Part shown: positions 23,761 to 52,305 of the stretch, piece by piece | Numbering within the stretch: the first letter of the stretch is position 1 | Layout: each line of letters starts with the position of its first letter | NCBI RefSeq assembly: GCF_004011695.2 | Contig: NC_082413.1 | Span: forward strand, 310,001-374,000 | Length of the DNA stretch: 64,000 bases | Direction of reading: 5' to 3' | From: Ascochyta rabiei | Taxonomy: Eukaryota; Ascomycota; Dothideomycetes; Pleosporales; Didymellaceae | The notes under the pieces: model-generated | Database searches by the model: none | Told to the model about the DNA's origin: nothing | The model's input: only the letters and a program-made list of their open reading frames with translations | Translations under genes and position numbers: made by a program

Positions 23761-23842
23761 GGCCCGATGGCGCAATGGTAGCGCGTCAGATTCCAGTTAA
23801 GGTGTCTCCTGAAGGTTAGGCGTTCAAATCGCCTTCGGGTCA
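23761..23842 (+). tRNA. tRNA-Trp (CCA) with a short intron
   Basis: The 7-bp acceptor stem pairs GGCCCGA with TCGGGTC, leaving discriminator A. The D-arm has GCGC pairing around AATGGTA, and the T-arm is AGGCG, TTCAAAT, CGCCT. The anticodon loop reads TTCCAG and is then interrupted by about 10 nt (near 23797-23806) before TCCTGA. Removing these leaves a 72-nt tRNA closely resembling eukaryotic tRNA-Trp. The A31/C39 position would be a mismatch in this alignment, so the exact intron ends are uncertain by 1-2 nt. Confidence 0.88.
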
Positions 23843-42000: not shown

Positions 42001-45000
42001 CGTTCGCCTGAGGAGCTTGGCCGTCGAAGACCATGTTGAGGAGAACCCACTACCAGATTTCCGTAACATCATCTCCTCCGAGGATGACTCTGCAGACGAG
42101 CAGAAGGACCTGTTCTCATTGAAATTCACCAAGGTCAATAAAGAGTCACCAGAGTTCCAGACAAAATTTGAGGGCATTGCCACGAATCTGGACGTTGCTG
42201 TTTCAACCATCAATTTGATTGTCACCAGAAGGACTTTGCTCACTCTTCTCGACTTTGTCCTTATCACTTTCACAAACCCGGATCAACCTCAGAATCAACA
42301 AGCCCAGATTGCTGCGAAGTCTGATGAGCAGGAAGTAAACAAGTCGTCTGACGCCGAGCCAGACAAGATACGCATTCGTGCTGAGCTGAAGCGTATTGCG
42401 GTCGTTCTAAACAACGATGGTATACGTCTCGCTACCCTGAGCTTGAATTCTGGCGACGTTGGCATTATGCTGAACGGAGGAACAATGCGCATTGGCGGTC
42501 GACTTGGTAACCTATCACTCATCGACGAGGTTAATCAGGGTGTTCCAGAAACATCGTCTTTACGACAGCTGGTGACGATCGAGGGTCAGAATTTGGCAGA
42601 CTTCAGCTATGAGACATTCGACTCCAAATCAGATAGCTACCCTGGCTACGATATGTCGGTAGCATTGAAGACGGGCTCCATCAAGATCAACTTCCTTACG
42701 GAACCATTCCGCAAGATTATGGAGTTTGCTGTCAAGTTTGGAAAGATGCAGGCTATCTTCAATGCGGCTCGTCAGGCTGCAGCGAATCAAGCAACCCAGA
42801 TCCAACAGAACCCCGCCAAGTTCCATTTCGACATTACTATCAGTACCCCGATCGTTGTATTTCCACGCATGGTAATATCGGACAAACCAGAACGCGACAC
42901 TCTGATCGCAAATCTAGGAGAGATCTACGCAAAGAATGAATTCACACCGCTAGATGACTCGAAGAACGCAGATGTTGCCAATAAGATCTCTGCTGGTATC
43001 AGAAACATCAAACTTACTTCGAACCTCCACTACGAGGACGACCACTCCGAAGCGCTTGAGTTGATCGACAAGGTCGATCTCAATTTCAACATCACTATGG
43101 TTGAACACAAGGCTGGCCAACATCGCCCAGATATGGAGATTATTGGATCCATGTCCGACATCAATCTATGCCTCACTCCGGAACAGATGAAGTTCGCACT
43201 GGAGCTGTCTCGTACCATTCCCCAGGCCTTCGCAACAGAAACGGATGCAATTGACGAGGATGTCAAAGAAGAGCTTCCAGAAGCCAAGACCGAGGCAGTG
43301 CGACAAATCACAGTTACAGAGTCATCAGATGATGAACCCTCGACAGATGTTGTTTCTTCGCAAGGGCCTGAGCTGTCAACTGATGCCGATAAGTGGACGA
43401 AGCTGGACTTCGTGTTCAAGGTCGGCGCCATTGCCTTGGAGCTTATTCGATCGAAGGAAGGTGAGCCGATTGGCGACGTGGAGGCCGCAAGTCTTTCGAA
43501 GTTCTCTCTTAATGATACGAACGTGAAGGTACGCATGATCAGTGACGGTGCCATGGAAGCAGAACTCGCGGTGCAGTCGTTCTCGATTCGTGACAGTCGC
43601 GCACAGGGAACGAACAAGTTCCGCAAGATCATGTCTTTAATCAACAACGACGTCAAGCAGCAGTTCATGGCTAGTGTTTCGATCTCTGGTGGAAAAGAGC
43701 GCAACCTTATTGCACTTCTTACGGTCGACAGCCCAAGAATTATCCTGGCACTGGACTATCTGTTTGCTCTGCAGGCTTTCATTAACGCCGGCCTTGATAC
43801 GGATGAGCCGCTGATTATTGACGAAGAGCTTGATGACGAGGAAACTGATAGCGACGACGAGATCATGTCGCGAGATGAATCTCAGGCACTGCAGAAGCCA
43901 GAGGCCCTCGCCGATCCAGCGCAGAATGGCATGAGCATGTCGTTCCGCGTAAACTTGGTGGATGCACAGGTGGTGCTCATCGCCAACCCAGCACTAGCCA
44001 ATTCTGAAGCTATAGTGTTGGGCACTAAGCAGGTCCTGGTATCGAAGCAACAAGCTATGACACTGCAGGTGGATAAGATTGGCATGTTTTTGTGCCGCAT
44101 GGATCGCTTTGAGACAAACCGACTGCGCATTCTTGACGACTTTAGCATCCAAACAGCTTTGGATATGCGCAACCAGAGCTCGAGGTCATCTTTGATCAGC
44201 ATCAATATTGACATTGAGCCTCTCGTTCTCCGCCTGTCGCTCCGCGATATTCTGTTAGCCATGCAGATTGTAAACCGCGCATCTGCAATGCAAGCTACCG
44301 ACGACAAGAAGATGCTCGAGGAGGGTGCAAAGCAGCTTAAGCCCAGCACACCTTCCAAAAAGCCAAAGTCGACTGCAGTGGCCAGCACAACAAGGCCCCG
44401 AGCCAAGTCTATCGCGAAGACCAAGCGATCGAGCCAGAACGAAATGCAAACGCAGCAATCACAAGCTGGTTCAGCAGTTCTCAAGCGTGAAGAGATGCAC
44501 GTCAACCTCGAAGGCCTTCGTGTCGTTCTCATTGGTGATGTGCACGAGATGCCAATGCTTGACTGGAGGGTCAAGAAGTTTGGTGTCGACGTTCGGGACT
44601 GGTCAGGTGCCATGGTCGCCGATACTTCGCTCGAGACTCTGATCAACGTTTATAACTTCTCGAAATCTGCGTGGGAGCCATTGATCGAGCCGTGGAGTGT
44701 CGGCTTCCATATGGCGAAGGATTTGAACCCTGATCGTCTGTCTGTGGAGCTGTACTCTCGCAAATCTATGGAGCTTACGATCACAGCGGCAACTATCGCC
44801 TTGGGCTCCAAGTCATTCGACTTCCTTACGGCTGACGAAGACATTCTCTCCAAGCCGCGCGCTAGCGATGCACCGTACCGTATCCGCAATTACACAGGCT
44901 TTAGCCTCGATGTTTGGGCGGAAGGCAAGGAGCAGGAAGGTTATGCGGCGAAACTGGAGGATGGTGAGGAGAAGCCATGGCGATTTGAAGATCCGATGTC

Positions 45001-52153: not shown

Positions 52154-52158
52154 AAAAA
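52154..52158 (-). terminator. Pol III terminator of tRNA-Pro
   Basis: A run of five T on the - strand starts seven bases after the tRNA 3' end. Confidence 0.75.
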
Positions 52159-52164
52159 TGTTGC

Positions 52165-52305
52165 GGGCCCCACCGCGATTCGAACGCGGGGCCTCCTGCA
52201 GACTCGAGAGTGAAATCCCAAAGCAGGAATCATACTGAATGTTTGTTAGTCAATTGAAGCGTAAAGAGGGCTAATTGGTTGTCTTACCCACTAGACCATG
52301 AGGCC
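52165..52305 (-). tRNA. tRNA-Pro (UGG) with two introns, one spliceosomal-like
   Basis: Exons on the - strand are 52288-52305, 52217-52234 and 52165-52200, together 72 nt, the normal tRNA-Pro length. The joined RNA has acceptor pairing GGCCTCA with TGGGGCC plus discriminator C, the D-arm TGGTCTAGTGGTATGATT typical of eukaryotic tRNA-Pro, the stem CCTGC/GCAGG around TTTGGGT, and the T-arm CCGCG-TTCGAAT-CGCGG. A canonical intron of 16 nt (52201-52216) follows G37. A second insertion of 53 nt (52235-52287) splits the D-loop right after the two conserved G residues. It starts GTAAGA, has TTGACTAAC 12 nt before its end, and ends TTCAG. The A box (52288-52298) and B box are both intact, and a T5 terminator follows. 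It could be functional or a tRNA relic; the preserved pairing argues for function. Confidence 0.85.
52235..52287 (-). other. Spliceosomal-type intron within the tRNA-Pro D-loop
   Basis: Donor GTAAGA, branch CTAAC, acceptor TCAG and a length of 53 bp are indistinguishable from mRNA introns elsewhere in this window (47-60 bp). Exact removal restores the consensus AGTGG-TATGATT of tRNA-Pro. Confidence 0.75.

Follow-up and report, generated by a model that had tools for sequence, protein, structure and literature searches.

Putative spliceosomal introns in a tRNA-Pro(UGG) gene and further nuclear tRNA genes of Ascochyta rabiei

Introduction

Can a nuclear tRNA gene carry an intron that only the spliceosome would remove? 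In textbook eukaryotic tRNA splicing, a protein endonuclease cuts introns at position 37/38 without involvement of the spliceosome. The 64,000-nucleotide stretch of A. rabiei DNA analysed here (the window) contains on its minus strand a tRNA-Pro(UGG) gene that is interrupted twice, by a 16-nt intron at 37/38 and by 53 bp inserted in the D loop. The initial annotation took these 53 bp to be a spliceosomal-type intron, supposedly gained by reverse splicing or insertion, and the gene to require both the spliceosome and the tRNA endonuclease. We analysed the anatomy of this gene and surveyed part of the genome for similar genes, for their conservation and for intact copies. Very probably, a functional tRNA-Pro(UGG) gene of the Pol III type is interrupted here by a 53-bp U2-type spliceosomal intron, and it belongs to a set of at least 17 genes of this kind. 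This reading is based on the anatomy of the inserts, their repetition, their conservation pattern and the fact that no intact Pro, Gln or Cys copies were detected; from these we infer the splicing, the machinery and the order of events.

Materials and methods

The genome surveyed comprised 40.9 Mb in 23 contigs, window included, of which contig C23 (55 kb, with many tRNA genes) is probably mitochondrial. The survey was partial and proceeded through searches with the joined tRNA-Pro D arm, the whole window gene and a B-box pattern (100 matches listed of 124, part of these read), together with a structural reader of fetched stretches. Identical gene-plus-flank sequences were merged before the uninterrupted genes were counted. 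Tabulated data on inserts, base pairs and T runs cover 16 genes and 19 inserts; the 17th gene (L138, with the 20th insert) was added afterwards from reading by eye. In the pattern searches for intact genes, 2 or 3 mismatches were permitted, and more diverged copies would escape them. Because the Rfam tRNA model search overlooked the window Pro gene and many genes with ordinary introns, its list was not used for claims of absence. The bulge-helix-bulge geometry tested was a 4-bp central helix pairing intron +2..+5 with exon 2 +2..+5.

Results

A 53-nt insert splits the D loop of a tRNA-Pro(UGG) gene

The window gene and its parts are arranged as follows.

52165..52305, minus strand: tRNA-Pro(UGG) gene with two introns, counted from position 1 through the discriminator base (ARAGORN Pro(TGG) once both inserts are out)
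52288..52298, minus strand: A box TGGTCTAGTGG, intact (consensus TRGYNNARNGG)
52235..52287, minus strand: 53-nt spliceosomal-type intron in the D loop, between G19 and U20 (GTAAGA..CTAAC..CAG; gene L016 is uninterrupted here)
52282..52287, minus strand: putative 5' splice site GTAAGA
52245..52253, minus strand: branch-site-like TTGACTAAC
52235..52237, minus strand: putative 3' splice site CAG
52218..52220, minus strand: anticodon TGG
52201..52216, minus strand: 16-nt canonical tRNA intron at 37/38, endonuclease type
52175..52187, minus strand: T arm / B-box region GCGTTCGAATCGC
52154..52158, minus strand: TTTTT just downstream of the gene, Pol III terminator-like

The insert has the position and composition initially described, beginning with GTAAGA, ending with TTCAG and carrying the branch-site-like motif, whose A lies 11 nt from the 3' end. 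Since the insert follows the A box directly, this box is left whole. With both inserts removed, ARAGORN called a tRNA-Pro(TGG) of 72 nt, as had been proposed; removal of only the 53 bp gave Pro(TGG) with a 16-nt intron, and with the 53 bp kept there was no call or a wrong tRNA. The accompanying description of full pairing was slightly generous: the D stem includes one G-U and one U-U, and a U-G occurs in the acceptor stem.

The boundary of the 53 bp can shift by one G. When candidate deletions were scored for the resulting tRNA structure, the GT-AG deletion ranked 23rd of the 2415 tried, with a score of 16.0 against a best of 17.0. As the structure score does not single out this deletion, the boundary is fixed instead by comparison with a second Pro(TGG) gene (L016, contig C8), which is uninterrupted at 19/20 and whose mature exons are identical to those of the window gene (71/71).

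Elsewhere in the window, the tRNA-Trp(CCA) gene at positions 23761-23842 is an ordinary one, interrupted solely by a 10-nt insert at 37/38 and followed by a T run. For one protein gene of the window, the best matches among named records were from Hortaea werneckii (74% identity) and from a record labelled Quercus suber (72%), which suggests a Dothideomycete. A B-box-like match at 44719 was dismissed as chance, since neither Rfam nor the parser found a tRNA there.

Similar inserts recur in tRNA genes across the genome

The partial survey identified at least 17 interrupted nuclear tRNA genes carrying 20 such inserts at eight kinds of site, so that the window gene, at first taken as a single case, is one of a series.

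Pro(AGG), L010 and L011: insert at 11/12
Pro(TGG), window gene: insert at 19/20
Pro(TGG), L016 (C8:920791-920929): insert at 24/25
Pro(TGG), L022 (C9:807097, minus strand): inserts at 11/12 and 24/25
Pro(CGG), L013: insert at 34/35, inside the anticodon
Pro(CGG), L132: inserts at 15/16 and 34/35
Gln(CTG), L030, L097, L137 and L138: insert at 11/12
Gln(TTG), L087: insert at 11/12
Cys(GCA), L029 and L039: insert at 15/16
Leu(TAG), L040: inserts at 10/11 and in the variable arm
Leu(CAG), L127: insert at 10/11
Ala(CGC), L017: insert at 27/28

Two of the 20 inserts split the anticodon (C34|G35) and one lies in the variable arm. Because the 34/35 inserts of Pro(CGG) divide the anticodon, the anticodon itself would be made only by splicing. 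Introns at 37/38, all of the ordinary endonuclease type, are present in 16 of the 17 genes (16 nt in the window gene, and in 15 of the 16 others); L022, L132 and L040 each combine such an intron with two inserts. The same material yielded 59 uninterrupted nuclear tRNA genes.

ARAGORN returned the expected anticodon for 15 of 16 fully spliced genes, including the window gene. The remaining gene, Leu(TAG), gave only '???' when fully spliced and Leu(tag) when the 37/38 intron was kept. The two Cys genes were called Ala(tgc) with the 37/38 intron kept and Cys(gca) when fully spliced. From unspliced sequences, nothing was found in 13 of the 16 genes and a wrong anticodon in the other 3.

The deletion scan covered 12 of the 17 genes, namely those with a single insert except L137 and L138. 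A GT-AG deletion was the unique structural optimum in 3 of these 12 genes and tied for best in 6. In L013, which has a C at the expected G18, the best GT-AG deletion ranks 75th and differs from the proposed insert; in L016 the unique optimum ends in TG (GT..TG). The insert boundary is not always fixed by structure alone.

Two side observations concern other tRNA genes. L070 (C4:381982-382053) and L068 (C8:1398957-1399028) share the same tRNA-Thr-like body with anticodons TGT and TGC (alanine), respectively, a possible case of an anticodon-shifted tRNA. L035 (C1:3237226, minus strand) is a tRNA-Leu(TAA) gene for which the parser gave an unusually long 55-nt insert at 37/38, without GT-AG ends.

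The inserts carry the signals of mRNA-type introns

All 20 inserts start with GT (GTAAGT, GTAAGA, GTAAGC, GTACGT, GTACGC, GTTAGT or GTATGT), and 18, among them that of the window gene, end with AG. A CTRAY motif with its branch A 10-12 nt from the 3' end occurs in 19 of 20; the exception, one of the two 34/35 inserts of the Pro(CGG) pair, has AATAAC at the branch place. Lengths are 50-59 nt, with one insert of 68. The Gln(CTG) inserts differ in their branch site but remain within CTRAY (CTAAT, CTGAC).

For comparison, the window contains 35 mRNA-type intron candidates consistent with reading frames, which are predictions and not annotated introns; a branch motif lies 9-12 nt from the 3' end in 17 of them, and 21 have lengths of 47-59 nt. 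From the reversed control came 11 candidates, one with a branch at this distance. The GT with a GTRNGY-like consensus, the CTRAY at short distance, and the length and spacing of mRNA introns are those of U2-type introns.

The 24/25 inserts of L016 and L022 depart from this pattern at one end. They keep GTAAGT and GCTAAC at normal branch spacing (10 and 11 nt), a retention that decay alone does not predict, but end in CTG (L016) and CAT (L022). Lacking AG, these two are at most candidate U2-type introns. The abstract of a survey of non-canonical splice sites describes more flexibility, in general, for the 3' splice site than for the 5' one; GT-TG and GT-AT introns are not mentioned in the part of that survey consulted (PMC7072748).

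Exons are conserved while inserts drift

Mature exons are identical (71/71) within the Pro(AGG) pair L010/L011, the Cys pair L029/L039 and the Gln(CTG) genes L030/L097/L137, and the inserts of the same genes match in 73-80% of aligned columns (43/54, 42/55 and 44-47 of 58-62). An exact filled and empty site is provided by Leu(CAG), where L127 with the insert and L048 without it have identical exons (80/80). Where exons differ, most changes preserve pairing. In the comparison of the window gene with L022, the four differences make up two stem pairs, both changed in a compensatory way; of the nine between L013 and L132, six amount to three compensatory stem changes (3/3 pairs) and three are unpaired. 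Between the window gene and Pro(AGG) L010 there are 13 differences: both partners differ in five base pairs and a single partner in one, the remaining two being unpaired positions, which makes 5 of 6 changed pairs compensatory.

A run of at least five T starts within 17 nt downstream in all 16 interrupted genes measured, against a background of 216 in 18280 stretches (1.2%). In intact tRNA genes of the same genome, at least four T within 22 nt were found in 51 of 58. Judged by these sequence patterns, the interrupted genes are evidently under selection as tRNAs.

All Pro, Gln and Cys tRNA genes found are interrupted

The joined Pro D arm (up to 2 mismatches) matched the genome 11 times: five matches are the interrupted genes L010, L011, L013, L016 and L017, and the other six are not readable as tRNA genes. 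With the whole window gene as query, three Pro(TGG) genes were found, all interrupted. The initial annotation had named many intact Pro(UGG) copies elsewhere as evidence that would count against it; the genome holds two others, both interrupted, and no intact one was found.

The spliced Cys query hit two genome places, both interrupted, and the joined Cys pattern (up to 3 mismatches) had no match in the genome. The spliced Gln(CTG) query hit four places, all interrupted. With up to 2 mismatches, the joined Gln D arm, a pattern that an intact Gln(TTG) would also fit, matched all four of the interrupted Gln(CTG) genes and two further places; the latter (GGTTATCCCT; L139 and L140) were rejected as chance because ARAGORN gives no tRNA there. 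Pro, Gln and Cys isotypes are likewise absent among the 59 uninterrupted genes read. Within this partial survey, every Pro, Gln and Cys tRNA gene found is interrupted. Since the corresponding codons must be decoded and intact genes for these three amino acids did not turn up, at least some inserts should be removed from RNA. We regard it as a strong inference that the cell must remove some of them, unless intact genes were overlooked, are too diverged or lie in assembly gaps.

Discussion

A spliceosomal intron whose host also needs the tRNA endonuclease, as first suggested for the window gene, remains the reading that best fits the sequences, and it is strengthened by the 16 further interrupted genes. 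A precursor would be transcribed from the internal A and B boxes up to the T run, and the spliceosome would take out the D-arm, anticodon-arm or variable-arm intron(s) via GTAAG, CTRAY and AG. The RNA would then fold, and tRNA endonuclease and ligase would remove the 37/38 intron. The tRNA endonuclease measures from the folded tRNA body; as a split D arm would prevent this fold, action of the spliceosome most likely comes before that of the endonuclease. Genes for endonuclease subunits are present in the genome (two PF01974 matches).

The same endonuclease could in principle cut the inserts itself, as ectopic tRNA introns processed at bulge-helix-bulge motifs in the manner of archaea or Cyanidioschyzon merolae. 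The enzyme's genes are there, and ectopic tRNA introns do occur in some algae and nucleomorphs, according to the parts of two reports considered (PMC3978253, PMC4090602). We nevertheless consider this reading highly improbable. The 4-pair central helix is complete in 0 of 19 inserts (1-2 pairs in 18, 3 in one), and GTAAG ends, CTRAY at 10-12 nt and AG ends are not what an endonuclease substrate predicts. As for ordinary endonuclease-type introns, their position at 37/38 is occupied by the 16-nt intron, and the 53-nt insert lies at 19/20. Equally improbable is that the interrupted genes are decaying pseudogenes with the tRNAs supplied by other genes. Two inserts without AG, the missing G18 of L013 and the intact twin (L048) of one Leu(CAG) gene would agree with decay. 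It is difficult to reconcile with the failure of the partial survey to find any intact Pro, Gln or Cys gene, with exons conserved through compensatory changes next to inserts that drift yet retain splice signals, and with the retained T runs. Self-splicing introns were rejected because inserts of 50-68 nt are too short. Recent introner-type copies were rejected as well: a genome search with the window gene and its insert, run at E<=10 and passing over simple repeats and very frequent words, returned no other copy of the insert.

A separate matter is which polymerase makes the precursors. Inserts at 10/11, 11/12 and 15/16 split the A box in 13 of the 17 genes, by which Pol III transcription should weaken, and spliceosome loading is usually coupled to Pol II. 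The precursors might then be spliceosomal substrates made by Pol II or from upstream promoters and not as ordinary Pol III genes. We think this unlikely, though less so than the two readings above, since T runs directly follow all 16 interrupted genes measured, much as they follow most intact genes, and the window gene keeps a complete A box. In addition, a spliced mRNA-type intron is described for fission yeast U6, which Pol III transcribes (PMC10484740). In genes with TGGT|GTAAG at 11/12, the 5' splice site recreates the first eight A-box positions (TGGTGTAA), which may be a reason for the recurrence of this site; the A box is recreated less well in the Gln(CTG) genes with GTACG.

Favouring Pol III transcripts processed by the spliceosome, we think it fairly likely that in this lineage the spliceosome is an essential tRNA-maturation machine: all Pro, Gln and Cys genes found carry putative spliceosomal introns, two of them inside the anticodon, and the reading of these codons would depend on two unrelated splicing systems that act in order. 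As part of the same proposal, the spliceosome may accept, in one tRNA family, non-AG 3' ends set by branch-point distance. If the inserts are spliced as they look, the spliceosome handles Pol III transcripts at scale, translation would be coupled directly to the activity of the spliceosome, and complete isoacceptor sets of genomes of this kind can escape ordinary tRNA gene finders. In addition, the lineage would offer a natural system for studying spliceosomal intron gain, because each new site could be placed to the nucleotide in a 72-nt RNA whose structure is known.

Comparison with known systems

Canonical eukaryotic nuclear tRNA introns sit at 37/38 and are cut by a protein endonuclease. 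The window gene resembles this class in having such an intron (16 nt) and differs by its second one. Ectopic introns of C. merolae and nucleomorphs are also eukaryotic tRNA introns away from 37/38, for example in the D arm (PMC3978253, PMC4090602, in part). For C. merolae, bulge-helix-bulge motifs seem decisive, and the tRNA insertions of Guillardia theta are 3-24 nt long, as given in the part of the latter report considered (PMC4090602). In contrast, no insert examined here has a complete bulge-helix-bulge and all have spliceosomal signals. The portion consulted of a paper on nucleomorph small RNAs does not mention tRNA introns (PMC6461891). The exact pattern of the Pro 11/12 arrangement had 0 matches in viral contigs and 0 in prokaryote genome contigs, as expected for fungal DNA.

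We found no earlier report of spliceosomal introns in tRNA genes in the open-access literature of PubMed Central. What is described here is probably a known intron type in a gene class for which no report was found, and the U6 intron is the nearest precedent. A. rabiei itself has a U6 copy (L136, C9:1076009-1076174) with a 66-nt GTATGT..GTTAAC..GCAG insert at ACAGAGAA|GATTAGC; as no T run follows its 3' end within the 196 bases fetched, this copy may be a pseudogene. Another U6 match (C14:905425-905524) covers the full model over 100 bases without a large insert, as far as match coordinates tell. The U6 snRNA intron of Schizosaccharomyces pombe is alike in being a spliceosomal intron in a small Pol III RNA gene of a fungus, and reverse splicing is suspected as its origin in the part of the report considered (PMC10484740). 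Such an origin is easy to imagine for U6, which belongs to the spliceosome; tRNAs do not. The S. pombe case also differs in extent: in A. rabiei whole tRNA isoacceptor sets are affected, and three genes carry two inserts together with a 37/38 intron.
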